64,000 nucleotides of DNA, from positions 4,189,501 to 4,253,500 of the forward strand of contig NC_052474.1 of NCBI RefSeq assembly GCF_009730915.1, given 5' to 3'. Source of the DNA: Dioscorea cayenensis subsp. rotundata (lineage: Eukaryota > Streptophyta > Magnoliopsida > Dioscoreales > Dioscoreaceae). The notes beneath the pieces were generated by a model. It was not told the DNA's origin. It did no database searches and was given only the letters and a program-made list of their open reading frames with translations. The translations under genes and the position numbers were made by a program. This document shows positions 2,447 to 64,000 of the stretch, piece after piece (the stretch's first letter is position 1; the number at the start of each line of letters is the position of its first letter).

Positions 2447-5400
2447 CTAAGCTGAAACAGTCTCTTGTTTCGAGGAGAGCTGGTTTTGAATGTGTTGAGG
2501 AACAACGTCAAACTTGGCCAGCTGCATTGTGTAGGATGCTCGCCCTTTCGTCATCCCTCGGAGAGTGCTCACATACTGGAACATCTCGGCCAGAGGCACC
2601 AATGCATCAACTACCTGCATTTCCAAAATTATCCATGAGTCCTCATTTTGGTTAATTTAACAAGTGTTTTTGTAGGATTTTACATACCTTGAGACCGCCA
2701 GGTTTATCACCAAAATTGTTAATCTGGCCTCTTCTTGAGTTCAGATCACCAATAACATCACCCAAGTGCTCTTCGGGGGTGACGACTTCAACCTTCATGA
2801 TAGGCTCCAGCAATTTTGGAGCAGCCTTCCTCATTCCGTCGCGGAAAGCACCTCTTGCTGCCAGCTGAAATGCCAAGACACTGGAATCGACATCATGGTA
2901 AGAACCATCAACTAGTACGGCTCGAACATCGACAACGGGATAGCCAGCTAGAACACCGTTGGACATGCATTCCTCCAATCCCTTCATCACTCCTGGTATG
3001 TATTCTTTTGGCACTACCCCACCCTTTATTTCACTCTTGAATTCATACCCACTTCCTGCTTCCAAAGGCTCAAACCTCACTGTGATGTCTGCAAACTGCC
3101 CTGCACCGCCAGATTGCTTCTTGTGGATGTATTGCACTTCTGAGACTCTTGAGATGCTTTCTCTGTAGTTGACTTGAGGGGCACCGACATTTGCCTCAAC
3201 CTGTGAATGCAGTTAGAAGAATTAAGTCCGAGCAAAGACAATTGCAAAGAAACTAAATCATTGAAGAAGTCACTCTAGAATATATATGCATCAACACTGA
3301 CTTTGAATTCCCTTTTCAGTCGATCGACAATAATCTCAAGATGCAACTCTCCCATTCCTTCAATGACTGTCTGGTTGATTTCCTCATCTCTTGAAAAGTG
3401 AAAGGATGGATCTTCTTGAGCCAGCTTGATTAGTCCAACTGCCATTTTATCAACATCCGCTTTTGTCTTGGGTTCTATTGCAACCTTAATAACAGGATCC
3501 GGAAAGTCCATTCTTTCAAGCACTATAGGTTTCTCTGGATCACATAGTGTTTCACCAGTTATTGTATCTTTCAAGCCCGCAAGAGCAATAATATCACCTG
3601 TCAGAGCTGATTTAATGTCTTCTCTACTGTTTGCATGCATCTCTAGAAGTCTACCTATTCTTTCTTTCTTCCCTTTGTTCGAGTTGAGGACATAAGACCC
3701 GGCAGATAATGTTCCTGAATATACTCTCACAAATGTAAGGGATCCCACAAATGGATCACTCATGATCTTGAAAGCCAGTCCTGCAAATGGTTCATTATCA
3801 CCTGGCAGTCTCTCAATAGTCAATTCAGGATTGTCAGGATCAGAACCCTTCATTGGTGGCAAGTCAATAGGTGAAGGCAAATAATCAACAACAGCATCAA
3901 GCAACGGTTGCACTCCTTTATTTTTAAATGCAGAACCACATAAAACTGGCACAAAATTACCAGCTATAGTTCCTTTTCTAATTAATCGTTTAAGAGTTTC
4001 CACATCAGGTTCAACTCCTTCCAGATAGTTTTCCATGGCGCTATCATCTAACTCAACTACAGTTTCTATCATCAGCGTTCTGTATTCTTGAGCCAATTCC
4101 TGGAGGTCAGCAGGTATATCCTCATATACAAATTTTGCACCTAATTCCTCACCAGACCAGATTACAGCTTGCATTCTTACGAGGTCAACAATTCCCCGGA
4201 AACTATCTTCTGAGCCAATTGGTAGCTGGAGAACAAGGGGTTTCGCTCCCAGGTTTGTGACAATCATGTCCCTTGTTCTAAAAAAATTCGCTCCAAGACG
4301 GTCCATTTTATTGACGAAACAGATTCTTGGAACACCATACCTATCGGCTTGTCTCCAAACAGTTTCAGATTGTGGTTCAACACCAGCCACACTGTCAAAC
4401 AAGCATATAGCACCATCCAAGACTCTGAGAGCTCGCTCCACTTCAAGTGTGAAATCAACATGGCCAGGAGTGTCGATAATGTTTATTCTGTGATTGTTCC
4501 AAAAGGTGGTAGTTGCTGCAGAGGTTATGGTGATGCCTCTTTCCTGTTCTTGTTCCATCCAGTCCATTGTGGCTGTTCCTTCGTGGACCTCACCAATTTT
4601 GTAATTCCGACCAGTGTAGTAGAGAATTCTCTCTGTTGTTGTAGTTTTTCCTGCATCTATGTGAGCCATTATTCCAATATTACGGTAGTCCTTCAATGGT
4701 ATTGCACGTTTTGAATCTGGAAAGCCAAAAAGAAAGAAAGAAAAAGCCCTTAAATGAGAAAAAACCTTCCAATGAATTTCACAGTAGGTTAGCATAAACA
4801 AACAAAATGATGGCAATGAAAGGAAAGAGAGTTGCACACAGACAATAAATAAATATAACCAAAGAATAAAGAACATTTTATTACTACCACGAAATGATGC
4901 TGATCAGTTTCCATGTTATAAAAGAACTCCAAGATACAGCACAAAAGGAACAGAAGCTTATAAGTTTCCATGATAGTAAAGAATGACAAGATAAGTTCAA
5001 ACGAGATAGAGTTAGAATGTTGACTGTCATAGCTAATTATAGACAGATATAAAAGAGCTAACCAGTAAAAATACTAAATGAGGTACCGGATTTCAACTCC
5101 AAGCTCTTCAAACTGTCAGACCACATAAGAAACACGCATACATATCAAAACACAAGCATAGATCCCTTGACTATTCTTTTCTTTTCTTATTCTTCTTCTT
5201 CTTCTTTTTTTTTTTCTCAAAGAACCAATGATCAGCAAGAATCAAACAGGGCTAAATGGCTACTATGCAATCATAAGAACTTGAAGCTACAACATTTATA
5301 TGAACAATTATCCACATGTATTTATCTATAAATCATTGATAAAAAAAAAAAGCATCTTCTATGCCAAAGCATCACCCACAGTCAATTCATGCTCACTAAG

Positions 5401-6924: not shown

Positions 6925-8622
6925 TTTTTTTTTTTGGAAGAAAGAGCAAAAGCTCAAACAAAGGCTAAAAGGTAAAATGTCGTAAGGAGCACATGTCGTC
7001 AAGCCATTGGGGCCGGTCTAGCCCTTGAAAAAATAAAAATAGTTGAATGCTATTTCTGTCGAAGGTTGCCAAAGCATCCGCAATTTCATTTTCCTCCTTA
7101 GGTATAGATTCAATATATAGGTGAGGGAAGAAAACCAGGTTCCTTTTAAGTATCTGATATTCATCTTTGATATGCCACGGAGTACACACGTTGAAATTCT
7201 TTAGGAGCTGAGCAACACCAGCACAGTCACAGAAAAGGCAAGAAAGAAGCCATCCATTCGAAATACAAAATTGCAAAGCGAGGTTGATGGTTGCGAACTT
7301 AGCCATGATGGGAGAAGAGGTCACTGCATCTTTGGCACCTGCAATCAAAATGTGGTTCATATTAGATAAGATGATGAAACCCAGGCTCGAAGACCTAGAT
7401 TCCTCACACCACGAAGCATCAGTGAAGATAGTTATGGATTTGTTTAAATGAGAAGTTTTGGGGAACTCCCTGAAGGTGTATGTGGAGCGGTTGTAGCACA
7501 CAATCCACGTGTTAGGAACAATTGAACTGAAGTTGATCGGTCTATTATTGAAGATTAAGTTGCATCTAGATTTCCAGATGATCCAGGCCACAAAAGCAAT
7601 AAATGCCTTAGCACGCAGGTCAACATCTCTACCATAAATATTCTTTAAAAGCCAGCTGTTGAATTAAGAGCATGTATATCATTTTGATTCCAGCTAATCC
7701 TAGCAAACACATCTTGCCAGTAGTGTCTAATTTTGCAACAATTCCAAATCAAGTGCTCAGCAGATTCATCAGCAAGTCCATACAAAGGGCAAGTTATCTT
7801 AGGGCCAATATTGAGCTGATATAAGTATTCCCCCGTGGAGAGTCTCCTGTGTGCAAGCTTCAAGAGAAAAATTTTAACTCGCGGAAGAGTAGGGAGTTTC
7901 CAAATTATCAACCAGCTCAGCCAAGGGGTTTCAGTAATATTTGAACTAGAAGCATGCTCATAGACTGAAGAAGCTATAGAAACTTTGTAAGAAAGGAATC
8001 TCCAGACCCAAAGATTGGAACCACCCTCAATATTTAAATTCTCGAAACAGTTCCAATTAAAATTGTTACCAAACAAGCTTATGAGGGAGGCAGAGAAAAA
8101 ACCATTAGTCTCTAAGAGATTAGAGAACAGTAAATCCTCAGGATTATCAATTGACATATTTAAAAAAGTAGGTTTTTTAGCAATAGGAAGATCGAAAATA
8201 CAGGAGTCATGCCAGAGATCAATGGTCGCAGGGTTGCAGAAAAGAAGCTTGATGTTTGGCCTAAGAAAGTTAGCTATGTTACAAATGGATTTGTAAAACC
8301 AATAGGAATTAAAAATACGATTCGGGTTCCAAAGATGCCAACCATGGTATTTAAATTTGAAAATATTGACCCAATTTTGTTATCGGAGTTAAGAATGGAG
8401 AAAACATTTTTGGCCATAAGAGAGTGCTTTACATATCTAAGATTCCAAATTCCCAAGCCCCCCTCAGATTTATTTTTTGCGATTCCTAATTACATCCTTT
8501 CGGTTATAAACCTCCCCAATTCCATTCTGGACAGTATATCCAAACTTGCTAGGAATTTTCTTGGGGGTAGAACTGGCAACAATCATGGCTTTCATTCGGT
8601 TGGTTGGGCAGTTACTACACTT
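6925..8622 (-). mobile_element. 5'-truncated LINE (L1-like) with RNase H domain
   Basis: The insertion is flanked by a perfect 14-bp direct repeat, AAGATACTTGGCTT, at 6911-6924 and 8623-8636, and has a poly-T run (the minus-strand poly-A tail) at 6923-6935. Inside, on the minus strand, are pieces of ORF2: a GIWNLRYVKHSLMAKN stretch (8274-8456) after the reverse transcriptase; a zf-RVT region with CPLYGL..ESAEHLIWNC (7645-8157); and an RNase H-like domain with FTDASW, CDCAGVAQLL and NEIADALA (6965-7591). The residue expected to be the catalytic Glu appears to be Lys (MAKFA). Frames are interrupted and the reverse transcriptase core is missing, so the copy is dead. The intact target duplication suggests a fairly young insertion. 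Confidence 0.9.
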
Positions 8623-9951: not shown

Positions 9952-10590
9952 TTAAGGATAAGAGGATTGAACACCAGCCATGCCATTGATAAGTGCCAAG
10001 GCATTGCTTGTAAGCTGAGCCACCTTCACAACTTGGCTTCTCACCTTATTCTCAGCACCTCCATTCTTGTTTCCATCGCTTGTGAATTCATTTATGCAGG
10101 TGTTCTCATCTGTCAGTGCAGCACTCACCCATGTTTGTATATCATTCATGTGAAGCTTCACATCCTTACCTCTAAGCTTTGCCATTTCATGCAGGGACTG
10201 TTTAAGCTCTTCCACAGAGTCTTGCAAGGTCTCCATGCAGTCACTCATGGCTTCTTCCTCTCTAGAACTCATTCCCCTGCTTTTTGACGTCGATCTAATC
10301 ATTGTTGATGTGCTTCTGGTGCTATCTAGGCTGACAGAGAGTGCAGCTTTAGCTAGTTGCTCAGTGCTTGTTTGGATTATGGGTGCATAAGAAGAGAGTG
10401 AACTGAAACAGAGCGTTGGGTAATCTGTTTTTGTGCATGATTTACGAATAAACTCCGCACTTGTACTTGTAGACATCTCACTTTGTGTGAGCCTTGCTGC
10501 AATGCAAGTTTGAGAATTAAGAACAAAGAGCAGAAGAGCTGCAAGAGCAGAGCAAGTGAACAATATACTGTTGATCATCTTACTTGCCAT
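9952..10590 (-). CDS. PMEI/invertase inhibitor-like protein, copy 1
   Basis: This single-exon gene encodes about 212 residues from the MASKM start. Members of the plant invertase/pectin methylesterase inhibitor family (PF04043) are secreted four-helix proteins that block pectin methylesterase or acid invertase in the cell wall. A signal peptide (about MASKM to CIAARL) comes first. Then the four family cysteines appear as two pairs: SCTKTDYPTLC, and DCMETL with ENTC. The C-terminal helix reads VAQLTSNALALING. Upstream in-frame ATGs at 10623 and 10641 lie only 27 and 9 bases from the TATA box at 10641-10650, probably at or before the transcription start, so I prefer 10590. It is the most diverged intact member of the local array; which enzyme it inhibits cannot be told. 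Confidence 0.9.
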   Translation of the reverse strand: MASKMINSILFTCSALAALLLFVLNSQTCIAARLTQSEMSTSTSAEFIRKSCTKTDYPTLCFSSLSSYAPIIQTSTEQLAKAALSVSLDSTRSTSTMIRSTSKSRGMSSREEEAMSDCMETLQDSVEELKQSLHEMAKLRGKDVKLHMNDIQTWVSAALTDENTCINEFTSDGNKNGGAENKVRSQVVKVAQLTSNALALINGMAGVQSSYP

Positions 10591-10640
10591 TCTCTTCAAG
10601 GTCTCTTGTTTGTGATGAACCATATGGAAGAAGAATGACA

Positions 10641-10650
10641 CCTATTTATA
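10641..10650 (-). promoter_or_regulatory. TATA box of PMEI copy 1
   Basis: TATAAATAGG read on the minus strand, 27 bases before the first in-frame ATG (10623). The same spacing is kept in every copy of the array. Confidence 0.75.
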
Positions 10651-16788: not shown

Positions 16789-18371
16789 TCAAGGAGCAGA
16801 GGATTGGGCACCAGCCATGCCATTGATGAGTGCCAAGGCATTGCTTGTAAGCTGAGCCACCTTCACAACCTGGCTTCTCACCTTATTCTCAGTACCTTCA
16901 TCCTTGATTTCATTGTTTGTGAATCCATTCATGCAGGTGTTCTCATCTGTCAATGCAGCACTCACCCATGTTTGTATATCACTCATGTGAAACTTCACAT
17001 CCTTACCTCTCAGCTCACCCATGGCTTGCAGAGACTGTTTGAGCTCTTCCACAGAGTCTTGCAAGGTCTCCATGCAATCACTTGTTGGGTTTCAGCCCAT
17101 TTGGTGGGCTACCAACAAAGAAGAAATAAAGCTTGGGCTTGGCCCAAGATAAAAATGAAAAAGAAAAAAAAATGAAGTTATGTCAATAACGAAGAAGTGG
17201 AGGGCAACAAGGTAATTCCGCAGTCTAAATGTCTCTCATTTATTGTGAATGAGAATGAGTTATTCTTGGTGAAAAAAGTTAAGGGGATATGTGCAACATG
17301 TGAGAGAGAGAGAGAGGAAGCTACCACCAAGAAACCAAGAGAGGTGAAAGGGAAGAGAGGGAGCTAGGGCAAGGAGATCAGACGGCCAAACATCGCCGGA
17401 TCTCACTCAAACTCCGGGAGGAGATTCCTTGCAAGAAGCTCAACCTATTGATTAGGTTTGATTCTTCCTTCACCTCTACTTGTTGTTTGTTATCCATCCT
17501 TGTTGATGATGATGGCGGTAATGTCATGCAAATCCTTTCTTATGAATGTTGTTGCCATAATGCATGTAAACCTCTAGTTAGCTAGAGAGGAACCATAGTA
17601 ACCCATTGTTGACATAGTGGATGCATGTTTAAGAGGCTCTAAGGAGTCCCGTGGTTTTTCCCTCGATTCGTAGAGCTTTCCACGCTAAAATTGTGTTTTG
17701 CATTGTTGTATGTTTATTCATCCCATTCTAACAAGAATTGAGGGGTTTGGTAGTGTTTTATGCTTGTTTTGAAGCATTGTATCTGTGAACAGTAACTTTG
17801 CTACAGTAACCGTGGTAGACAGCAAGGCTCACGGGCAAGCTTGCACCCGCATAGGTTCGCCAGTGAGGTTCACGGGCAAGTGTGCGCCCGCATACCGGCC
17901 GCATGTAAACAGTAACAGGGCTACAGTAGCATTACTACAGTAATTTCCGCAGATTTTCACTGTTCCAAAAACCGGATAAACCCCAACATCACTCATGGCT
18001 TCTTTCTATCTAAAACTCATTCATTGGCTTTTCGACATTGATCTAATCATTGTTGATGTGCTTCTGGTGTTGTCTAGGTTGACAGAGAGTGCGGCTTCGG
18101 CCAGTTGTTTGGGACTCGTTTGGATTGTGGGTACATAAGTAGAGAGTGAGCTGAAATAGAGTGTTGGGTACTCTGTTTTTGTGCATGAATTGCGGATAAA
18201 CTCCACGCTGGTACTTGTAGACATCCCACTTTTTGGGAGTCTTGCTGCATTGCAAGTGTTAGAATTAAAAACAAAGACGAGAAGAACATCAAGAACATTG
18301 CAAGTGAACATTCCACTGCTGATCATCTTGCTTACCATTTTCTTCAAGAACACTTGTTTGTGATGCACCAT
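16789..18371 (-). pseudogene. PMEI copy 2, split by a solo LTR
   Basis: The N-terminal half (18021-18371, signal peptide to RSMSKS) and the C-terminal half (16789-17073, METLQDSVEEL to the usual end) lie on either side of a 906-bp LTR inserted in the codons for the DCMETL segment. The N-terminal half is also out of frame at its end: two bases seem missing in the SKGQGMS region, giving a stop. The second family cysteine (TLCF in other copies) is Tyr (TLYF). A TATA box (TATAAATG, 18391-18398) is still in place at the usual 27-base distance. The gene cannot make a normal inhibitor. Confidence 0.92.
17083..17988. mobile_element. Solo LTR of a retrotransposon (fossil)
   Basis: The 906-bp block starts TGTTGGG and ends CCCCAACA, the TG..CA inverted ends of an LTR. 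A 5-bp target duplication, TCACT, flanks it at 17078-17082 and 17989-17993. No internal region or coding domain is present, so it is a solo LTR. The intact duplication and the clean match of both flanks to sister PMEI genes suggest a recent insertion. Family (copia or gypsy) not determinable. Confidence 0.88.
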
Positions 18372-18429
18372 ATGGAAGAAGAGAGGCTCCCATTTATAGA
18401 CTCTTTTCCAAGAATCTACTGAGGAATTA

Positions 18430-19306
18430 AGGGAGAACTTGTAGGAATTAACAGAGACTCCTCTCTACATTGATACAAATGCATCAATATGTTTCTTTGC
18501 TGTTTAAACAAGTTGCAAACAAATGTGCTGGAAACACATGGCTCTAACTAATTATTGGAAGTGTGGTCAACTTAGGCATGCTAATCTCTACTTCATGATG
18601 GTCTTGAATTAATTTTATCTGAATTACTTGCGCTGAATATCCTTGCAAGTTATCATGGATTGTGACTAAAATTGGATTACTCTGACCATGTTCACTGCAT
18701 GATCACAATGTATGTTTAAATGTTTCAAGTGGCTTGATCCATTAAGCCAACTTGCCTCATGAACTGAGAGATGCCTCTCAATCACCAGTTATCGATATGC
18801 CAAAGAGATATCATTGCATTTGCTACTTCATTGCAATACATAAAGGACTATCATAAGATAGGGAGGGATCAAAAACAAGTTGATTAAAAATATCTTAAGC
18901 CAAACTAAGTACAGATGTTCCCAGTTAAACAGAATTCCTTCAATTTTTTTTTAATGCTGATAACTCCAATGCTATTGCTTGATTCAAATTATAACTAAAT
19001 ACTGACAGAGTAAGAATGAAAAATGAAAAAAGAAAAGACAGCATTAGAACAAGTTGATCTTGCGGTTGTGGTGCTGCTTTCTGGTCTTCAAAGGCATGTT
19101 GCAACAGACACGCAATTATGTCGGCATAAAACGTGGCATTTTATGATAATTCCGTTGGTCTGAATCAAGCTTTCCTTAATTTAACATTAGACAAATATGC
19201 AAAATATAGCCATACAAAATCTAGAGTTTAAATACCTTTTTATTTCTTATGGCTAGCTTCCATTCTAAAGTCTCTATCTCAATGTCAGGTGTCAGGTGTA
19301 CACACT
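18430..19306. other. Upstream flank of PMEI copy 2
   Basis: Homologous to the upstream flanks of copies 3, 4 and 5; no gene seen. Confidence 0.6.
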
Positions 19307-23145: not shown

Positions 23146-23817
23146 TCAAGGAGCAGAGGATTGAGCACCAGCCATGCCATTGATGAGTGCCAAGGCATTG
23201 CTTGTAAGCTGAGCCACCTTCACAACCTGGCTTCTCACCTTATTCTCAGTACCTTCATCCTTGATTTCATTGTTTGTGAATCCATTCATGCAGGTGTTCT
23301 CATCTGTCAATGCAGCACTCACCCATGTTTGTATGTCATTCATGTGAAGCTTCACATTCTTACCTGTCAGCTCTCCCATGGCTTGCAGAGACTGTTTGAG
23401 CTCTTCCACAGAGTCTTGCAAGGTCTCCATGCAGTCACTCATGGCTTCTTTCTCTCTAAAACTCATTCCTTGGCCTTTCGACATTGATCTAATCATTGTT
23501 GATGTGATTCTGCTGTTATCTAGGCTAACAGAGAGTGCGGCTTCGGCCAGTTGTTTGGGGCTCGTTTGGATTGTGGGTGCATATGTGGAGAGTGAGCTGA
23601 AACAGAGTGTTGGGTACTCTGTTTTTATGCATGAATTGCGGATAAACTCCACGCTGGTACTTGTAGGCATCCCACTTTTTGGGATTCTTGCTGCATTGCA
23701 AGTGTTAGAATTAAGAACAAAGATGAGAAGAACTGCAAGAACATTGCAAGTGAACATTCCACTGCTGATCATCTTGCTTGCCAGTTTCTTCAAGAACTCT
23801 TGTTTGCGATGCGCCAT
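23146..23817 (-). CDS. PMEI/invertase inhibitor-like protein, copy 3
   Basis: The intact frame of 223 codons is colinear with copy 4 (19 amino-acid differences by my count). It has a signal peptide, cysteines at 63, 72, 129 and 176 (spacings 9 and 47, as expected for PF04043) and the conserved helix VAQLTSNALALING. Start choice is open: the MASKM start used by its sisters has changed to LASKM (CTG). Translation must therefore begin either at MAHRK (23817), which lies about where transcription should start, or at the following ATG (23772, MISSGMF), which still leaves a good signal peptide. A secreted inhibitor of cell-wall pectin methylesterase or invertase is inferred from the family. Confidence 0.88.
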   Translation of the reverse strand: MAHRKQEFLKKLASKMISSGMFTCNVLAVLLIFVLNSNTCNAARIPKSGMPTSTSVEFIRNSCIKTEYPTLCFSSLSTYAPTIQTSPKQLAEAALSVSLDNSRITSTMIRSMSKGQGMSFREKEAMSDCMETLQDSVEELKQSLQAMGELTGKNVKLHMNDIQTWVSAALTDENTCMNGFTNNEIKDEGTENKVRSQVVKVAQLTSNALALINGMAGAQSSAP

Positions 23818-23834
23818 ATGGAAGAAGAGAGACT

Positions 23835-23844
23835 CCTATTTATA
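23835..23844 (-). promoter_or_regulatory. TATA box of PMEI copy 3
   Basis: TATAAATAGG on minus, 27 bases upstream of the ATG at 23817. Confidence 0.75.
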
Positions 23845-28508: not shown

Positions 28509-29147
28509 TCAAGGAGCAGAGGATTGAGCACCAGCCATGCCATTGATGAGTGCCAAGGCATTGCTTGTAAGCTGAGCCACCTTCACAACCTGGCTTCTCA
28601 CCTTATTCTCAGCACCTTCATCTTTGATTTCATTGTTTGTGAATCCATTCATGCAGGTGTTCTCATCTGTCAATGCCGCACTCACCCATGTTTGTATGTC
28701 ATTCATGTGAAGCTTCACATCCTTACCTCTCAGCTCACCCATGGCCTGCAGAGACTGTTTGAGCTCTTCCACAGAGTCTTCCAAGGTCTCCATGCAGTCA
28801 CTCATGGCTTCTTTCTCTCTAGAACTCGTTCCCCGGCCCTTCGACATTGATCTAATCATTGCTGAAGTGCTTCTTGTGTTGTCTAGGCTGACAGAGAGGG
28901 CCGCTTCGGCCAGTTGTTTGGGACTCGTTTGGATTGTGGGTGCATAAGCAGAGAGCGAGCTGAAACAGAGTGTTGGGTAGTCTGTTTTTGTGCATGAATT
29001 GCGGATAAACTCCACGCTGGTACTTGTAGACATCCCACTTTTTGGGAGTCTTGCTGCATTGCAAGTGTTAGAATTAAAAACAAAGAGGAGAAGAACAGCA
29101 AGAACATTGCAAGTGAACATTCCACTGCTGATCATCTTGCTTGCCAT
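28509..29147 (-). CDS. PMEI/invertase inhibitor-like protein, copy 4
   Basis: Single-exon gene, 212 residues from MASKM (29147); an in-frame ATG at 29180 would give 223. Signal peptide MASKMISSGMFTCNVLAVLL to about NTCNAARL. The four family cysteines fall in NSCTKTDYPTLCF, SDCMETL and ENTCMNGF; the last helix is VAQLTSNALALING. The family binds pectin methylesterase or invertase outside the cell and lowers its activity. The TATA box (29198-29207) lies 27 bases before the longer start, so transcripts probably begin at about 29175 and favour MASKM. This is the best-preserved member of the B/C/D group and a good reference for the array. Confidence 0.93.
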   Translation of the reverse strand: MASKMISSGMFTCNVLAVLLLFVFNSNTCNAARLPKSGMSTSTSVEFIRNSCTKTDYPTLCFSSLSAYAPTIQTSPKQLAEAALSVSLDNTRSTSAMIRSMSKGRGTSSREKEAMSDCMETLEDSVEELKQSLQAMGELRGKDVKLHMNDIQTWVSAALTDENTCMNGFTNNEIKDEGAENKVRSQVVKVAQLTSNALALINGMAGAQSSAP

Positions 29148-29197
29148 TTTCTTCAAGAACTCTTGTTTGCGATGCACCATATGGAAGATGAGAGGCT

Positions 29198-29207
29198 CCT
29201 ATTTATA
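29198..29207 (-). promoter_or_regulatory. TATA box of PMEI copy 4
   Basis: TATAAATAGG on minus, followed by the shared leader with CCATATGG. Confidence 0.75.
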
Positions 29208-31657: not shown

Positions 31658-32296
31658 TCAAGGAGCAGAGGATTGAGCACCAGCCATGCCATTGATGAGT
31701 GCCAAGGCATTGCTTGTAAGCTGAGCCACCTTCACAACCTGGCTTCTCACCTTATTCTCAGCACCTTCATCTTTGATTTCATTGTTTGTGAATCCATTCA
31801 TGCAGGTGTTCTCGTCTGTCAATGCAGAACTCACCCATGTTTGTATGTCGTTCATGTGAAGCTTCACATCCTTACCTTTCAGCTCTCCCATGGCTTTCAG
31901 AGACTGTTTGAGCTCTTCCACAGAGTCTTGCAAGGTATCCATGCAGTCACTCATGGCTTCTTTCTCTCTAGAACTCATTCCTTGGCCTTTCGACATTGAT
32001 TTAATCATTGTTGATGTACTTTTGGTGCTGTCTAGGCTGACAGAGAGTGCGGCCTCAGCCAGTTGTTTGGGACTTGTTTGGATAGTGGGTGCATAAGCAG
32101 AGAGTGAGCTGAAACAGAGTGTTGGGTAGTCTGTTTTTGTGCATGAATTGCGGATAAACTCCACACTGGTGCTTGTAGACATCTCACTTTGTGTGAGTCT
32201 CGCTGCATTGCAAGTGTTAGAATTAAGAACAAAGAGAAGCAGACCTGAAAGAACACAGCAAGTGAGCATGGCATTGGTGATCATCTTGCTTGCCAT
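31658..32296 (-). CDS. PMEI/invertase inhibitor-like protein, copy 5
   Basis: Single exon, 212 residues from MASKM (32296), 223 from the upstream ATG at 32329. The signal peptide (MASKMITNAMLTCCVLSGLL to NTCNAARL) differs most from copies 3 and 4, while the mature part is nearly the same. The cysteine pattern SCTKTDYPTLC / DCMDTL / ENTC is complete. It ends MAGAQSSAP like copies 2-4, so this end sequence is a mark of the local family. TATA box at 32347-32356. Role as for the other copies: likely a secreted pectin methylesterase or invertase inhibitor. Confidence 0.92.
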   Translation of the reverse strand: MASKMITNAMLTCCVLSGLLLFVLNSNTCNAARLTQSEMSTSTSVEFIRNSCTKTDYPTLCFSSLSAYAPTIQTSPKQLAEAALSVSLDSTKSTSTMIKSMSKGQGMSSREKEAMSDCMDTLQDSVEELKQSLKAMGELKGKDVKLHMNDIQTWVSSALTDENTCMNGFTNNEIKDEGAENKVRSQVVKVAQLTSNALALINGMAGAQSSAP

Positions 32297-32346
32297 TCTA
32301 TTCAAAATCTCTTGTTTGTGATAAACCATTTGGAAGAAGAGAGACT

Positions 32347-32356
32347 CCTATTTATA
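32347..32356 (-). promoter_or_regulatory. TATA box of PMEI copy 5
   Basis: TATAAATAGG on minus, 27 bases from the ATG at 32329. Confidence 0.75.
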
Positions 32357-52055: not shown

Positions 52056-53055
52056 NNNNNNNNNNNNNNNNNNNNNNNNNNNNNNNNNNNNNNNNNNNNN
52101 NNNNNNNNNNNNNNNNNNNNNNNNNNNNNNNNNNNNNNNNNNNNNNNNNNNNNNNNNNNNNNNNNNNNNNNNNNNNNNNNNNNNNNNNNNNNNNNNNNNN
52201 NNNNNNNNNNNNNNNNNNNNNNNNNNNNNNNNNNNNNNNNNNNNNNNNNNNNNNNNNNNNNNNNNNNNNNNNNNNNNNNNNNNNNNNNNNNNNNNNNNNN
52301 NNNNNNNNNNNNNNNNNNNNNNNNNNNNNNNNNNNNNNNNNNNNNNNNNNNNNNNNNNNNNNNNNNNNNNNNNNNNNNNNNNNNNNNNNNNNNNNNNNNN
52401 NNNNNNNNNNNNNNNNNNNNNNNNNNNNNNNNNNNNNNNNNNNNNNNNNNNNNNNNNNNNNNNNNNNNNNNNNNNNNNNNNNNNNNNNNNNNNNNNNNNN
52501 NNNNNNNNNNNNNNNNNNNNNNNNNNNNNNNNNNNNNNNNNNNNNNNNNNNNNNNNNNNNNNNNNNNNNNNNNNNNNNNNNNNNNNNNNNNNNNNNNNNN
52601 NNNNNNNNNNNNNNNNNNNNNNNNNNNNNNNNNNNNNNNNNNNNNNNNNNNNNNNNNNNNNNNNNNNNNNNNNNNNNNNNNNNNNNNNNNNNNNNNNNNN
52701 NNNNNNNNNNNNNNNNNNNNNNNNNNNNNNNNNNNNNNNNNNNNNNNNNNNNNNNNNNNNNNNNNNNNNNNNNNNNNNNNNNNNNNNNNNNNNNNNNNNN
52801 NNNNNNNNNNNNNNNNNNNNNNNNNNNNNNNNNNNNNNNNNNNNNNNNNNNNNNNNNNNNNNNNNNNNNNNNNNNNNNNNNNNNNNNNNNNNNNNNNNNN
52901 NNNNNNNNNNNNNNNNNNNNNNNNNNNNNNNNNNNNNNNNNNNNNNNNNNNNNNNNNNNNNNNNNNNNNNNNNNNNNNNNNNNNNNNNNNNNNNNNNNNN
53001 NNNNNNNNNNNNNNNNNNNNNNNNNNNNNNNNNNNNNNNNNNNNNNNNNNNNNNN
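52056..53055. other. Assembly gap of 1000 N
   Basis: Exactly 1000 undetermined bases, a scaffold gap of nominal size. Frames crossing it are meaningless. Confidence 0.99.
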
Positions 53056-54589: not shown

Positions 54590-54905
54590 AAATATCAAAA
54601 TGGTCCTTATATTTTTCGTTTTCCGTCCTTTTAGTCCCTCTAATATAAAATCCGCCCTTTTGGTCCTTGTATTTGTACATTTTCGTCCTTTAGTTATAAA
54701 ATCTGCCCTTTTGCTCCTCGTATTTACACATTTTTATCTTTTTTGATCCCTCTAATTCATCAACTGGAAAGACTAAAAGAGCAGATCTGTCAATTAGAGG
54801 GACCAAAAAGATAAAAATATGAAAATACAAGGACCAAAAAAACAGATTTTATATTAGGACTAAGAGGGCAGAAAACATAAAATAGAAGGATCATTTTGAT
54901 ATTTT
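54590..54905. mobile_element. Foldback element (MITE-like)
   Basis: Arms 54590-54651 and 54845-54905 are inverted copies: AATATCAAAATGGTCCTTAT on the left against AATATCAAAATGATCCTTCT from the right. The inner parts (TTTGGTCCTTGTATT / AATACAAGGACCAAA) are also inverted, so nearly the whole block could fold back. No coding potential. Resembles widespread plant foldback MITEs; superfamily not assigned. Confidence 0.75.
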
Positions 54906-55164: not shown

Positions 55165-55514
55165 TTTTATTTTGTTATTTTTGAAAAGACTAGTAAATTG
55201 CATGTATTAATAAAAAAGAAGGAACAAGTACAAAAGAGAACATTGAAGGAAGACAAAAAAATAAAAATAAAAAAATAAAAAAAAAAGATAATAAGGAGGA
55301 ACGGGTTCTATCTTCCATATTTTTTTTTACAAATGTGATAAGCGCCACCCCACGATGGGGGTGTCAAGAGATAGGACCAAGTGTAAAAGTGAATATTGAA
55401 GGAAGACAAAATAAAAAAAAAAGACAATAGGGAGAAATGGGTCCTATCTCTCATTTTTTTTTTTTCTTTTACAAAGGCGATAAGCGCCGCCCTAAGATGG
55501 GGTGTCAAGAGACA
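55165..55514 (-). mobile_element. LINE 3' end, tail region duplicated
   Basis: Starts with the reversed LINE terminus (AAAGACTAGTAAATTGCATG). Then two tandem copies of about 140 bp (about 55228-55371 and 55381-55514) each hold a T-run, a GCGATAAGCGCC hairpin and GATGGGGGTGTCAAGAGA. Confidence 0.6.
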
Positions 55515-55868
55515 GACATATATAGAGATGCACCATTTATAGTAGCTTAACAACTCTATAGAGATTTATTAATTTGGCCAGGCATCATATGGGGTAATTA
55601 AATTCCTACCATGTGCACACTTAAAAAATATTTTAGGAATCAAACCAAGTTAATAAATTCTGCCTACGAAAATCTGGATCGATCCCGGAAAAATATTTAC
55701 AATATATCGCGACGATCGCTACGAGTATTTTTATACAATATCTACAATATATATATTACTATAACAGTATTGTCAACCCAGAGATTTGACCTGGGTCAAC
55801 CCATTCACTATTCTAGTAACATATTACTACCCTATCTCCCATTGTTTTTTAAAATTTCTATATTAAGG
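55515..55868. other. Spacer before the Mutator-like element
   Basis: No gene recognised; includes GACCTGGGTCAACCC and other short repeats. The base composition changes sharply after this point. Confidence 0.4.
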
Positions 55869-56270
55869 GCCTTTAAGTTTGTAAAATTGCCAAAAACACC
55901 CAATTAGTTTTGCAATCCCCAAAATCCCCCTCCTTTTAAACTCTATGTTTTTCAAAACCCCCAAACCACTCATAGCGGATGTGAGCGGGAGTGAGTTTCA
56001 AATTTTTTTGACGAAAATGCCCTTGCGTGAGGGAGTCGTGGGCTGCTGACCATCTCGGCGATTTGAGAGGAAGTGGGCGGTTTTTCCGTAGGGGTAACCC
56101 CGAGAGGCAATTTATTGGAGCCGTTTAATTGCTTTTTCTCAACTCACGTCTTGACTTTTTCCATTTCCAGCTGTCTCCGAAGTTGTCTTTCTACCGTGAA
56201 GCCTCTGTGATCGGCATTTTATCGACTTTTTCCCTTTCCACCCGGTATCTCGAAGGAGAAGTCCTCCAGC

Positions 56271-59200
56271 ATGACTAGTTGGCATTTCATCGGTTTGAAA
56301 TCTAAGGTATTGAGTATGGTTTTTATGTTAAGCTGCTACGTTTCAAAGAAAGATTTTTCGATTTTTGTTTTTGTGCTCCCTGCTTTTTGTTGGAAGATAT
56401 CAAGTCTGCAGGGGATTTCTCATGGGGTTTTGTTAGTCTGCAGGAGATTTCTCGGTCGGGTTTTGTTTTGTTTTGCATTTTCGTATGTATACACTATCGA
56501 ATTAGTTTTTTCGATTGTTATGATTTGTGTAATATTTATAATGTACATTTCCCGTTTCGTTTGATATGGTTAGCTTTTTACAAATGAGGTTGACGCTTTA
56601 GAAATGAGATGTTACGAGTTTAACATTTGTTGTCACTGTTTAAAGTATTCTCGTCTCTGTTTAACAAAAATGGGTCTCTGTTTAACATTTTATATCTCTG
56701 TTTAATAACCGAGAGTTCTACCGTTTAAAACCTTATATTTCCGCTAAACTTTTGTCAATACTGCATGTTGAATGTGTTGTTATTGTCGCAGGTTTGTGAT
56801 TATGGCGGTCAACCTAGTTAATGGCCGATGCTATTTGACACCGGTAGTGGAGACTTTAGCTGAATTGAAAAATAACATGACCCTCGACACTCGGGAGATT
56901 ATTCGACGGACACCGCATTTGCGCTTCATCGAGCTGGAAGCTATATACCAGAGAGAGCCCTTCTTGATTCTCTTTTGCAAAGGTACGATGGTCGCACCAA
57001 TAAATTCGAGGATCGGGAAAGCCTCGCTGAGTTTCGGACCTCAAGATGTGGCCCTCGTGGCTTGGTCTCGCGTTGCGATGGCGACGCAGTGGTCTTTCGA
57101 AGAAGAAAACCAGTCGGCGTCGAAGGGCGGTATCTATCAAAGACCTCACGAGAGCACGCAGAGACTCCATCAAGAGCACTCGCTGCAACTTGTTCGACGG
57201 AGGGAGAAGAAGATAATTTCGTCAAACTCTCGATGGTGTACCCTCATGGGGACAGTCCTCTTCGCCAAATACATCATGCTCGGTTCGAACCGGATCGCTG
57301 ATTACGTCGATGATCTACCGACCCAGTGGGCGATACGCATGGGCGCAGCGACGCACTAAGTGGCTTATGGAGGATATTCCATAGCAGTGCCCGAGTCGCA
57401 AGATAGATGCTCGTGGGAAGAAGATCAACTACGTGGTACATTAAGGGTTGCTCGGTCGCGCTTAACGTCTGGTTTTACTGAGATGACCGAGCGGGGAAGA
57501 AAGTCCGCTTTTCGCGAAGATCCCAAGGATGTTGTGCTACGGTGAAATTACTACCGGAAGCAAGCGACGGTAGAAACGAGCTTGTCATCGCTCGATGGAA
57601 AAGAGGTAATAAATCACTGGACAATGTTTAACATAAGTCTTTAACGTTTAAACATTTTTATTTAGCGCTTTAACTTTAGTATTTACCGTTTAACTCTTAT
57701 TCATACCTGGTTTAAATATTTTTGTTCTTCGCTTTAATTATATTCTATAACGCTTTAAATATATAAACACTACTGTTTAAATATAGTTTTTTTATAGTTT
57801 AAAATGAATGATTTCACTGAAATTGTTTGGTTTACATATGTTAGTTTCCCTGAGTGGTTCCGTGAACGTCGAAGAAGAAATATTTGTTAGGGGCCAACCG
57901 ACGGATGGATGCCATCGCTCCCGAACCACTCGCTCGAAGGCGGGATGAGAGGCAGCCTCTATCGCTGCTGGGGACCGCCTGCTCTCCCTACTTCCACCCC
58001 ACCACGCAGCGACGCGATTCCTCGACGCAGGAGCCCTCCCCTACCCCGGCAGATGCAACAACCTCCCCTACCACGCACAACGACAGGGGTCCCCCGAGTG
58101 TGGCGGCCCTCCGACCATCGGCAGCCCCTCCGACCATGCACGGATATTGACGACCGAAGTTTTCTCGGCTTGTCGCCGTGTCGAGGGCGCCTGGAAGGAC
58201 GTTCGACAGACCCGGTCGCGCCATCCCTCGAAAAGAACTCAAGCACCCGGGACGAACGAGGCGTCGGAATTTGACGACGACGAACATCATCGGGAAGGTC
58301 ATTCCAAGGCGGCCACATTCGAAGAGACTTCGCGAAAAAGAGGAGAACAATACTGCTTCTGTCTCCACCGCCGGCTGACGATGAAACAATAGCAACACCA
58401 TCGGCGGCTGATGCTGTTGTTGAGAAGGACATCTTAGATGATGTGGCCGTCGCATCTGCTGGAAGGCCGTTGACTCTCTTCTCGATGAAATCCTCGACCT
58501 GGTGGAACCAGCTGCCGAGATTGCGGCATCAAAGATGGACACAATCAATGAAGATCAAGAACAAGTTAAGGGTGTGTCATGCCCAATGATCGCTGCTGTC
58601 GTGGCCGACGGTTGAGAAGATCGCTCGAATCTGCTCAGCTGGCCGCGGACGCGGGCCGACAAGATCGCTAGCCCAAGCGAGACACAATTCCCACCACAAC
58701 AAGAACCATGTAAGGATGTGTCATGCGGTTGATGTTGTCGCCGCGTCGTCACGATCGGCGAGACATAATCCCACAACAAGAACAACCATGTAAGGATGTG
58801 TGTCGCAGTTGATGCTCGTCGCCATCGCCCCCGCATCGAGGAAGATCGTCATGAAGACCCCGACCGAGCAAGCGAGAGAGATGATCAAGGCCAATCAAAC
58901 ATCGACTGCACGTGCTCGGAAAGGTTTTTATTCGAAGAAGAAGAAATGGGTTGGCCTCGAGTCGTCTTTAACAAATACGACAGTGGAGTTGATGAGGATC
59001 TTCCTCAACCGCCTATGGACGGGTAAGTGTAAAGTTTTTTATGATATTGTTTAAAGGTTTTTATTATAGTGTTTAACAATTACCTAATAGTGTTTAATAC
59101 CTTTTATGTTATCATTTAATTTGTCTACTTAACATTTAATTATATATAATATCATGTAACAATTGATAATATCATTTAAATATTTATAATATGGTCTTAT

Positions 59201-59950
59201 TATATCCGTTATCGTTTAATCCCTCGAAAGACTGGGTCAGTGGAAGAATGACCTGTCGCAGACTACACGCGACAAATTATACACGCTGCTGAGGGGAAGG
59301 AGATGGTCATCGATGATGTGATGGACGCTGTATGCATAATACAAAAGTCGCGAGCAAAGAGCCATATCCTTACAAGAAGCGCCTCCATCACCGCGACTGC
59401 CATACTGTTTATGTCCAAGCGAGAAGACGCATACTGACACATTATGGCTATGATCGGGGATCGATGTGCGAAACCGCATGAAGTTCAAAATTGTCATCCT
59501 CCCGATAATCATGAAAGGCCACTTCCATGTCGTCAGTCTCGGACAATGATAAACAAGAATACATGCATTATTCTTCATGTCCGGGGTACGATAAGGACGC
59601 GTTGGACATGGTAAGTTATTTAATTATGTCCTATTAATATCTGTTTGGTATTTAAATCGCTATTCTAATCTCGACTTGCATATCTCGACAATGGAATCTA
59701 TTCGACAATTGTGTCGATATGGAGTTCGGCGAGTCGGCTGACAAGCAAAAGTACCCACTCGTGCACGACATAGAAAACCCCACGCCAAAAAACAAGGAAG
59801 CGTCGATTACGCCAGCCCTACGTCATGCGGTTTTATCGAGCAATTACTTTGGGGTGAAGTTACGGCCACCGCATGACGGGACGTTCCTTACCTCGTATTA
59901 CGGTATGTTACCCGCGATACTTAAGGAGGGGGAGGCGTGCCGTCCATGAC
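56271..59950 (+). pseudogene. DUF1985 + Ulp1 (C48) protease gene of the MULE, decayed
   Basis: A first coding piece MTSWHFIGLKSK (56271) is followed by an intron. The DUF1985-like part spans about 56800-57600: across frames it reads TREIIRRTP, RYDGRTNKF, DVALV, IADYVDDLPT, THKWLMEDI and SSLDGKEVI. The middle (57880-59030) is low-complexity with an ~80-bp internal repeat (58704 and 58784). The C-terminal part (59240-59950) reads IIMKGHFHVV, NKQEYMHYSSCPGYDKDALDM and YPLVHDIE, as in plant Ulp1-like cysteine proteases of mobile elements. Introns at ~57605-57845, 59030-59225 and 59612-59690 carry TTTAA arrays. Frames break often, so no full protein is made. Such genes remove SUMO-like modifiers in their active form; that activity is only family knowledge here. 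Confidence 0.75.
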
Positions 59951-60086
59951 AAAGGGGTCGTCACAAGAGGGTTAAATTTTGTTTTTTTCAAGAACATGTC
60001 CCATGATATCCCGAATGTCAATTTTATTTTTCGAATGTAAATCTGGACAAATTCAATTTCATTGTTTTCGTGTTCGAAGAGCATGA

Positions 60087-60539
60087 CTTGTATATGTTAA
60101 TGTAAATTTTTGTTTGTTTTGAATTGTAAAAGCGTGTTAAATTCCATTCGGCTTTCATTTCATTGTTTAATTTATGTTCTAATTGTGTACATTTCACTTT
60201 TCATTGTTTAAATATACTATATATCGCTTTAAACATCGCTTTTAAATATTTCAAAAATACTGACATCCGTTTAAAAATAACTACCTGCTCTATGTTTAAC
60301 TAAACGATTCATTGTTTAAATAAATATGGAAGTCGCCCATCAATAACTTGTATATCTCAATGTAAAAGTTTGTTTGTTTTCAATTGTAAAGGCGGTGTTA
60401 AATTTCATTCGCTTTCATTTCATTGTTTAATTTACGTTGTAGTTGTGTACATTTCCGTTTCATTATTTAAATATACCATATATCGTTTAAACATCAGTTG
60501 AAATATTTCAAATTACGATAGTATCCGTTTAAAAATAAC
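60087..60539. repeat. Direct duplication, 260-bp offset
   Basis: CTTGTATAT..AATGTAAA through CCGTTTAAAAATAAC occurs at 60087-60281 and again at 60347-60539, about 85% alike. It lies between the two convergent MULE genes and is rich in TTTAA. Confidence 0.8.
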
Positions 60540-60639
60540 AATGTCTCGCTTAAATACATTCAATTCGTTAGTAAAGAGTAAGAGTTTAAATATGGAAACA
60601 ACTCCATCAATACACAATGTTTCCCTCGTCATCGCCGGC

Positions 60640-62796
60640 TTATTAACAATACCTAGTCGGCTACGCTTTCATCATGCAAGATCGCTCGATTGTGACCGGA
60701 TCCATGGCGGCCGGTGCAATGTAACTCGTCGGACATCAAACGCTTGCGACTCGATCCTCTTTCGCCTAGGGCGCCCAGTCGCCTTCTCGTCACAGCGGTC
60801 ATGAAATGAAGCTCACGATTTCCATCCGAAGGCCCGTCATCGCTCGGGTATGGGGAATATAGTTTTCACTTGACGCAAGTTTGTAATCGTCGACGCTGAG
60901 TACCCGCTAATAAATCGATGTACGCTGGTGTCATGCGCATTATTGTCTGCTGCAAGCGTGTTTGCAGGGATACCATAAACTTGCCACCGCCGACATGAAC
61001 AAGTTCACGATGCGAGATCCACGAGTCTGCTGTGACCGGTCGATCACTCGTAACGATCATCGACACAACGACCAACACGAAGATTTCGGCTGTCCTCAAC
61101 AATGATCGCTACCTTGGAATGTATGTCTGGGCATAAGTAGGTCTCCCATTTGTTCGCTTGCTCACGCCGGTTACATAACATGCGCATCAACTTGAACCTT
61201 GCAAATAAGGTTAAACAAAGACGATGATGGTTAAATAATCCGTAAACATGTTTAAACATTATTGTAAATATTTAAACGAAAGGATTAATATTTAAAGTCA
61301 GACAAGTGTAATTAAACAAAGATTGAGAATGTTTAAAGGGTAACACTAAATGTTAGTGTAAACCAACATTCGCGAGACCTTATGGAGTCGACCATTTTTC
61401 GCCACCCGAGTAAACGACGAGCTTCCTCGATCCAAGCATCGAACGACTCCGCGACGTTTGACATACATCTCACCCCAACGATCACCTCCGACATGATAAT
61501 CCGAATACACGCTGACGAAAGAAAAGAATGCACGCTTTAAAACGATCACCGTCTCTTTCCACGATCGCAACGCCGCCGGATTTGTCTCGACCCACCTTAT
61601 CCACATACCAAAACAAACAATCAGAAGTGGAGATGTCAACGCTGGCCGAGGACCACCCGGGCATGCTCTTTTTTCCCAACCAAGCTCGCTTGTATGGTAT
61701 GTGGACACCATGTTCCCGCAACATGTCCTTCTAAATGTCGATGGCCTTAGACAAGGGACGGTCCTCGAGCTTCCGAATCACTCGTCGCTAACCCATTTTT
61801 TGGGACGCTCGGATGTGACGCCGAACCCTACGCCACCACCGCAAGTGTGTGACGGGTTGATTGTCTTGATTCCGAAAGTATTTTTTTGTTATACTCTTTT
61901 GATGCATGAAGGAGCCAACGACAACCATCGGCAAAGACATTCCACAACACTCGATGTTTTTCGTTCTTTATGAAATCGAAGTCAAAAATTCCTTTTGATT
62001 GCATGATTTCAAGCACATCCCTCGAAATGTTCGGACACCGCCAAAACGTTGTCCAATATCCAACGACAAGACTTCGTAATGATCTCGACGAGGAAGGAAG
62101 ACATCCCACACCGCCGTGGTCACCATGGGGATGAATGGGAGCACTCGCAGAATCAATTCCTCGCCAACACTTCACCAAATAAAAAAAGATCAATATGTTA
62201 AAGCGGAGAATATAATGTTTAAGTGATAATGACAATATTTAAACGTTAAATTAAATACTTAAGCATTTAACTAATAACGTAAACGACTAGTACAATATGT
62301 TAAACAGATGACTGGACATATTTACACAATAACGACCCCTGACATATCTGGAATAATTAAAAAGAAAAGGAACTTACAACGAGTAAACCCTCGCTTTTTC
62401 ATTAGGATTCAGCAATGGCACATTTTTCTCGCCCTCGACGACAAGATCAACTACAGAGACATTTGAAGATGGAGTGGACGCGACACATCCGCCGGAAGTC
62501 AACATCGCTTTTCTATCGGGCAAACCGCTTTTATATCCATCTGGTGTGATGAACTTAACCCTGACAAGAGAAACTTCGAGACCCCATCGCTCACATATCT
62601 CAGCTAACACCAACTCCCAAGAAGTCTGAGCAGTGAACATTAGCACCCTTCCCTCCCCGTTGAATCTAGCAATACCACAAAAAAACTCTCCATAATATAT
62701 CGGGTCGAAAAACCAAATCGTACAAAACCAAATGAAGTGAAGAACAAAAAAAGAAGACGAAGAAGAAGAAGTAGAAGATGTAAAGAACAAAAGCAA
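60640..62796 (-). pseudogene. mudrA-type transposase gene of the MULE, decayed
   Basis: Read on minus: an N-terminal domain (62374-62660) with TSWELVLAEICERWGLEVS; the MuDR DNA-binding region (61830-62110) with GQRFGGVRTFRG, FDFDFIKNEKHRV and DGCRWLLHASKEYNK; KAIDIQKDMLREHGVHIPYK (~61700); VAESFDAWIEEARRLL (~61395-61450); KWETYLCPDIHSKVAIIVED and GRCVDDRYEV (61050-61170); the CKHAC end of a SWIM zinc finger (60953-60967); and a GRPRRKRIESQAFDV-type C-terminus with a HGSGHNR zinc-knuckle remnant (60650-60790). The segment between about 61500 and 61440 is far too short to hold the DDE catalytic core, which appears to be deleted. Introns (61215-61340, 62185-62370) carry TTTAA motifs. It is not functional. 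Confidence 0.78.
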
Positions 62797-62929
62797 AGAA
62801 TCGAAAAGGCAAACAAAAAAAGCGCACGCTTGTATGCATAGAGGTTAGACTAGACGTGATGTGATTGGGCGGTATTTTTCCCTCCATCCCAAGGGCAAAA
62901 AGGGAAATATATGTCATCGTCGCGAGGAA

Positions 62930-63460
62930 GACATATTATCATCGTTCTAATGAATGTTCTCAACTCAACATGAGTCTCGTGTAAACGTCAAGCTTTTTTA
63001 TGTTTAAACGAGATACATATAGTGTTTAAAAATAATGGTTAACTCGTTTAACTAAAGTCTATATCATGTAAAAAAATATGTTATCGTTTAAATTGAATGC
63101 TTTTCATCGACATCGCGTCGAAGATGGGTACCTCCCGGTCACTGCTTTAAACATCTTTTACGTATTTTTCTTAAACACCGTTGTCATTGTTTAAAGAGTA
63201 ACTAGAGTATTGTTTAACTTTTTCTATTGCTTTTACACCGTTGTCATTGTTTAAAGAGTAACTTTTTTTCTTAAACACCGTTGTCATCTGCTTTAAAACA
63301 TATTTACGTATTTTCTATCGTTTACAACGACGCTCTTTTGTTTCCCACATTGTTTGTTTTTACTAGGTCTATGTTTAAATTTCGTAAGTTCACATCAAAT
63401 AAGCTTGTTACGTTTTATTTATAAAAGATTTACAACATTTACAACATTTACAACGTCCGC
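62930..63460. repeat. TTTAA-rich spacer with short tandem repeats
   Basis: Dense GTTTAAA-type motifs. The phrase CACCGTTGTCATTGTTTAAA occurs near 63177 and 63237, and CACCGTTGTCATCTGCTTTA near 63278. ACATTTACAACATTTACAAC is repeated at about 63434. Confidence 0.7.
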
Positions 63461-63469
63461 TCGGACTTT

Positions 63470-63600
63470 GGACACTCACGACTCAACCCTCGTATAACGA
63501 AACAAGTGTCCATGACATTCGAACGCTACACGGCTGCATAACATACGCGATCAACTCGAACCCCGCACAACGTACAACATTAAAAAAAGGTTAAACAACA
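63470..63600 (-). pseudogene. Second mudrA fragment (tentative)
   Basis: CATAACATACGCGATCAACT, the bases following it and the GGTTAAACA that follows match the exon-intron border at 61170-61225 of the first mudrA gene. It suggests another MULE copy, nested or duplicated, running off the window. Confidence 0.4.
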
Positions 63601-63820
63601 CACATTCATGAAAAACGACTATTAATCAATGTGTCATGGTCGGGACTTAAACGAAGATCCCGATAGTTAAACAGAGAAACTTAATAGTTGTACACCGACG
63701 CCATTTTTCTTAAACGGTAATGAGAAAGTCTCAGTGGTAAATGTCAACCCTCGCTCTTAAAGGATGTTTCATGATCTCCCTCCTCTAGAGAATCCTCCGC
63801 AATCACGCAATACGTGAAAA

Positions 63821-63940
63821 ACTTTTCTTTTCACCCAAGTCGAAATGCTCTCTTAATCGCTTTCCCGTCATCCACCACTGGAGAATCCCTCCGCATTCAG
63901 TGCAGTTATGAGAGCATTTCGCCTTTGGGCAAGAAAAGAT
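63821..63940. repeat. Inverted repeat with ~35-bp arms
   Basis: Left arm 63821-63855 (CTTTTCTTTTCACCCAAGTC..) and right arm 63906-63940 (..TTTGGGCAAGAAAAG) are inverted copies with a 50-bp loop. A direct repeat GAGAATCC(C)TCCGCA also occurs at 63788 and 63881. Confidence 0.65.
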
Positions 63941-64000
63941 AGTTTAACTAGTTCAGTGATTACCGCTAATTGATTCTCAAGATAAGGAAGAAGGCTCACG

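Follow-up and report, generated by a model that had tools for sequence, protein, structure and literature searches.

A stretch of 64,000 nucleotides from Dioscorea cayenensis subsp. rotundata (the window; contig NC_052474.1, positions 4,189,501 to 4,253,500) contains at 56200-63760 what is best read as a defective, non-autonomous Mutator-like element (MULE), the non-coding DNA of which is densely populated with the hexamer GTTTAA at steps of about 21 bp. The analysed segment was delimited by this motif array together with a raised observed/expected ratio of CpG, and its ends are not proven. Two remnant genes lie within it tail to tail and in opposite transcriptional orientation: a DUF1985-type gene on the plus strand (~ 56803-59950) and a mudrA transposase gene on the minus strand (~ 62690-60655), both followed by eye in a three-frame reading. 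We consider it probable that the element is of the VANC/KAONASHI kind and that the array is the predicted target of a DUF1985 anti-silencing protein.

The GTTTAA array and its two-turn spacing

Counted on both strands, GTTTAA occurs 53 times in the 3260 bp of non-coding DNA (eight stretches between 56200 and 63760), where 7.60 occurrences are expected (standard deviation (SD) 2.57; at most 15 in any of 300 shuffles). Four GTTTAAAC palindromes enter this count twice, once per strand, leaving 49 distinct sites. In the seven stretches taken as coding (4301 bp) the word is absent. The limits between coding and non-coding DNA were set by eye, partly after the motif had been seen, and they underlie the figures for enrichment, phasing, CpG and spacers; the counts of letter permutations and the ranking of hexamers by phasing are independent of them. 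The six letters can be arranged in 60 ways; on the plus strand of the element GTTTAA itself reaches 36 occurrences, the next arrangement 10 and the median 2. There are 30 GTTTAA in 1-52055 of the window. The initial annotation had already pointed to introns filled with TTTAA, which are indeed present far above chance; it had the word, but neither the phasing nor what the word probably means.

The arrays are distributed over the whole element. On the plus strand, the presumed leader intron (56618-56728) carries six GTTTAA at steps of 20, 21, 21, 20 and 23, followed by the first coding intron (57626-57802, steps mainly 20-22) and the partly degenerate array of the second (59049-59219); the introns of this gene were placed by eye. 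Between the genes, a plus-strand array at 60165-60589 holds a duplication with copies 260 bp apart (60083-60200 and 60343-60460, 81% identity). One mudrA intron (61211-61336, minus strand) carries an array largely on the mudrA sense strand, another (62217-62305, minus strand) three sites without a single 21-bp step, and the region upstream of mudrA (63002-63715) carries sites in both orientations.

Spacing of the sites is regular. Same-strand steps of up to 110 bp fall into 20-25 (18 pairs), 37-45 (15) and 56-65 bp (16), while the intervals 26-36 and 46-55 are empty; relaxing the word to (G/C)TTTAA adds four outlier steps (7, 13, 29 and 49). At a period of 21 bp the mean cosine is 0.750, against 0.027 (SD 0.095) for random placements, none of which was as regular in 1000 trials. 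A period of 20.75 bp fits best, 21 bp almost as well. Opposite-strand distances sit on the same lattice. When the sites of both strands are pooled by their TTT|AA centres, the mean cosine at 21 bp is 0.70, a value that has no null of its own. In the element 11 hexamers have 10 or more close pairs, and by a pair-weighted score GTTTAA is first among them; of the 97 hexamers that qualify in 1-52055, none goes above 0.43 at 21 bp. All six matches to a three-site phased array in the window lie inside the element. This spacing points to the DNA double helix; a binding protein would meet the sites on one face.

Regular spacing could also arise by slippage, in which a satellite-like 21-bp unit grows in non-coding DNA and then decays with no protein involved. 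With Tandem Repeats Finder the element gives four short arrays with periods of 20-22 (56618-56666, 57626-57694, 59030-59076 and 59146-59192; 2.1-3.3 copies, 72-88% matches), as slippage would produce. Adjacent spacers are somewhat more alike than composition predicts (0.437 over 16 pairs, against 0.303 from a null taken at one fixed length and slightly understated), and the intergenic array carries the longer duplication. Growth of the array by duplication is therefore likely. As an explanation of the whole pattern we nevertheless regard slippage as unlikely, given that seven of the eight separate non-coding stretches contain the word, six of them with steps of 19-24 bp. In 27 IMG/VR stretches with four phased GTTTAA, moreover, spacer identity averages 0.886 and never falls below 0.5 (0 of 27), against 0.437 in the element. 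The spacers of the element have thus largely diverged while the core is kept, a contrast biased by the selection of units for having the core.

Two further alternatives concern the location and strand of the sites. Words rich in U on the sense strand may aid plant intron splicing, and with palindromes excluded the intron sites do lie mostly on that strand (15 of 15 in the plus-strand gene, 5 of 7 in the mudrA introns). Splicing is still a very unlikely explanation, as the array extends between the genes (9 versus 2 sites on the two strands) and upstream of mudrA (8 versus 8), and other orderings of the same letters show no comparable enrichment; we know of no reason at the RNA level for helical phasing. 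The sites might otherwise bind the transposase, like the subterminal repeats of CACTA or hAT elements, and DNA transposons frequently carry short repeated words to which proteins of the element bind. Occupation of internal introns and the intergenic centre, and not of the ends alone, makes this highly improbable.

Gene remnants and extent of the element

The mudrA remnant (60655-62690, minus strand) retains the DNA-binding domain, the C-terminal part, SWIM and a zinc-knuckle-like end, the last recognised by eye. The MuDR DNA-binding domain PF03108 (DBD_Tnp_Mut) is matched in an untouched open reading frame (ORF) with E 4.5e-05 and 23.5 bits, and on a frame-stitched piece with E 2.2e-05 and 24.5 bits, both slightly below the curated cut-off of 25. 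SWIM (PF04434) exceeds its cut-off of 19.6 on a stitched piece (23.5 bits) and stays below it on the unstitched read-through (17.9 bits). Within about 60 bases the reading passes from 'DRFK/RAFFSF' to 'SNVAESFDAWIEEARRLL..MVDSIR', that is, from the N-terminal part to the stretch directly after the position of the DDE core, which hence appears to be deleted. Searches with untouched ORFs, read-throughs and stitched pieces gave no Pfam match to the MULE domain, as expected after loss of the core, and a copy without room for it is a derivative that is not autonomous.

For the plus-strand gene (56803-59950), PF09331 (DUF1985) is the top Pfam match, with E 0.13, or 0.0054 after re-stitching (17.1 bits, cut-off 35.1). 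Peptidase C48/Ulp1 found no match in Pfam (untouched ORFs, read-throughs and four differently cut pieces), NCBIfam (one piece) or PDB sequences (one piece). The C-terminal part nonetheless resembles what we take to be the Ulp1 type of plant MULEs, a resemblance that no search confirmed, and the position presumed to hold the catalytic Cys reads Tyr. With C48 unfound and Tyr at this position, we do not file the element as a confirmed member of the Ulp1-carrying (KAONASHI-like) MULEs. The middle exon carries two plus-strand copies of 46 nt, 80 bp apart (58689-58814, 85% identity in a repeat search). Because both genes are frameshifted, scans of untouched ORFs and read-throughs gave few matches: DBD_Tnp_Mut, a sub-threshold SWIM, and DUF6618 and CSTF_C, both rejected as chance-level.

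These results bear on several claims of the initial annotation. Two convergent transposon genes are recovered by the three-frame reading as tail-to-tail remnants on opposite strands, and a mudrA gene that lacks room for its DDE core and keeps DNA-binding, SWIM and C-terminal parts agrees with PF03108, PF04434 and the three-frame reading. The results fit a Mutator-like element that retains parts of mudrA alongside a DUF1985-type gene, while the Ulp1 label of that gene is without a profile match: of its proposed N- and C-terminal domains, DUF1985 is the top match below threshold, and C48 was found in none of the searches. The expectation that domain searches would find both MULE and C48 thus failed as worded, the DDE deletion explaining MULE only. 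Assignment of the two genes to a single element gains support from the array, which shows one word and one spacing across both; GTTTAA is shared by the introns of either gene, the intergenic DNA and the region upstream of mudrA, which ties the two genes together.

Sequencing errors are an unlikely source of the frameshifts, since host genes of the window are open over long stretches, and the frameshifts are probably real decay. These host genes comprise an Elongation factor G gene with long open exons (2652-4903, minus strand; PF00009, PF03764 and others), plant invertase/pectin methylesterase inhibitor (PMEI) genes arranged in tandem at 9952-32347 (minus strand), and a coding stretch of Phloem protein 2 (PP2, PF14299; 41374-41838, minus strand). 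The PMEI ORFs lie at 9952-10641, 23146-23835, 28509-29198 and 31658-32347, with a shorter one at 18021-18464; for two of these five, a domain test showed PF04043. LINE-like remnants with reverse-transcriptase-like (PF13456) and zf-RVT (PF13966) domains lie at 6968-8379 (minus strand), and 52056-53055 is an assembly gap of 1000 N.

The left end of the element is perhaps at 55600-56100, and the right end perhaps past 64000. Comparison of 55300-56620 with 62691-64000 revealed no inverted repeat (local score 31; 100 shuffles, mean 25.9, SD 2.6, maximum 34), and the repeat listing of the window, among the longest 25 of 81 pairs, likewise contains no terminal inverted repeats. A long imperfect foldback at the right edge of the window (63818-63944; z -5.3 against shuffles for 63775-63960 as single-stranded DNA) could be near the element end. 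Immediately left of the element, an A/T-rich stretch occurs in two copies 136-153 bp apart (55220-55464). A MITE-like element with inverted ends of 48 nt, 85% complementary, is present at 54590-54904.

CpG content and known anti-silencing systems

Methylated plant DNA tends toward loss of CpG. Coding parts of the element have an observed/expected CpG ratio of 1.23 and non-coding parts one of 1.50; the figure for 1-52055 is 0.41, and the climb lies at ~ 55.6-56.1 kb. Such undepleted CpG in a decayed copy may reflect little methylation, recent arrival or a GC-rich start; the pattern is no more than compatible with methylation loss caused by a protein.

According to Sasaki et al. 2022, eudicot VANC systems reportedly gain and lose DUF1985, DUF287 and Ulp1, and their specificity is said to be set by motif sequence, density and helical periodicity. 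Two VANC-type features are found here, namely a motif arrayed in non-coding and not in coding parts, and helical periodicity, the latter being the feature reported in that study. The anatomy fits a VANC system, the exceptions being C48, which is unconfirmed, and DUF1985, which stays below threshold.

Arabidopsis VANC proteins with DUF1985 bind short motifs in their own VANDAL family, causing loss of methylation (PMC5735166, PMC10398659). The sites of the VANC21 motif lie in introns, intergenic and terminal non-coding DNA, and tandem peptide motifs are common in the variable regions of VANC proteins (PMC5735166). VANDAL21 (Hiun), which encodes VANC21, is like our element a MULE composed of a transposase gene and a DUF1985-type gene (PMC5735166, PMC10398659). 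Its motif YAGTATTAY is short, free of CG, similarly placed and absent from two coding probes tested, and its arrays have grown via tandem repeat formation, to which we liken those of the element. In contrast to VANDAL21, the motif here is GTTTAA with a measured phasing of 21 bp, the copy is broken and the second gene is possibly Ulp1-like.

KAONASHI (KI-MULE/KIU) carries an Ulp1-type gene in reverse to mudrA, an orientation like that of the two genes here, and has no terminal inverted repeats (PMC13317346, PMC2528002). Ulp1-family (ULP) sequences are described in grapevine MULEs in a report that cites others from Arabidopsis, melon and rice (PMC2528002); elsewhere than in KI-MULE, Ulp1-carrying MULEs display both orientations, with and without terminal inverted repeats. 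Unlike in these elements, C48 is unconfirmed in our copy. A 2026 review states that Ulp1-bearing VANC genes recognise motifs of their own family and anti-silence likewise, and calls the role of Ulp1 unknown (PMC13317346). The initial annotation held that the reason for keeping a SUMO-protease-like gene is not understood; the review already assigns Ulp1-carrying VANC genes to sequence-specific anti-silencing (PMC13317346). Such systems are already described. The motif of the element is unmatched to any published one, and we do not claim it as unpublished: among the papers searched, none has GTTTAA together with VANDAL in its text, motifs in figures and supplements being outside the reach of the search.

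A predicted target of a DUF1985 protein

In the mechanism that we propose for the element, its non-coding DNA is a candidate array of binding sites with the core (T/C)GTTTAA(A/C), presented every ~ 21 bp, or two helical turns, on one side of the DNA. A DUF1985 protein supplied by intact sister elements would bind this array, perhaps cooperatively, and would remove or block DNA methylation across the element, so that the family stays expressible. With its own protein and transposase broken, this copy could respond in trans only. An Ulp1 domain, if there is any, might strip SUMO locally from silencing factors.

Besides the tandem arrays that slippage would yield, several observations weigh against this reading. 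The absence of GTTTAA from coding DNA is by itself not significant (1.30 expected, 81 of 300 shuffles also zero), one non-coding stretch (59621-59689) lacks the word altogether, and in some arrays positions are skipped or degenerate. The DUF1985 match is under its curated cut-off and depends on frames chosen by eye, no profile search found C48, and high CpG can also be explained by recent insertion or GC-rich ancestry. We still hold the anti-silencing target to be the probable explanation. A more far-reaching version, which we put forward tentatively and as rather doubtful, is that the array reveals an anti-silencing specificity not yet described, in which a DUF1985(-Ulp1) protein would read a dyad-like GTTTAA(AC) on a two-turn lattice, and dead copies would keep both lattice and CpG, protected in trans by an intact sister.

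From an odd base pattern, the proposal derives a concrete and testable claim about the word and spacing to be expected for the protective protein of a transposon. CpG that stays undepleted although the copy is broken would be a footprint of anti-silencing legible from sequence alone and, if the more far-reaching version is true, past anti-silencing could be recognised by CpG content together with a phased array where a genome has no methylation data. Should intact relatives confirm the proposal, the array could serve directly to probe the DUF1985 protein of this plant and any added role of a SUMO-protease-like domain.

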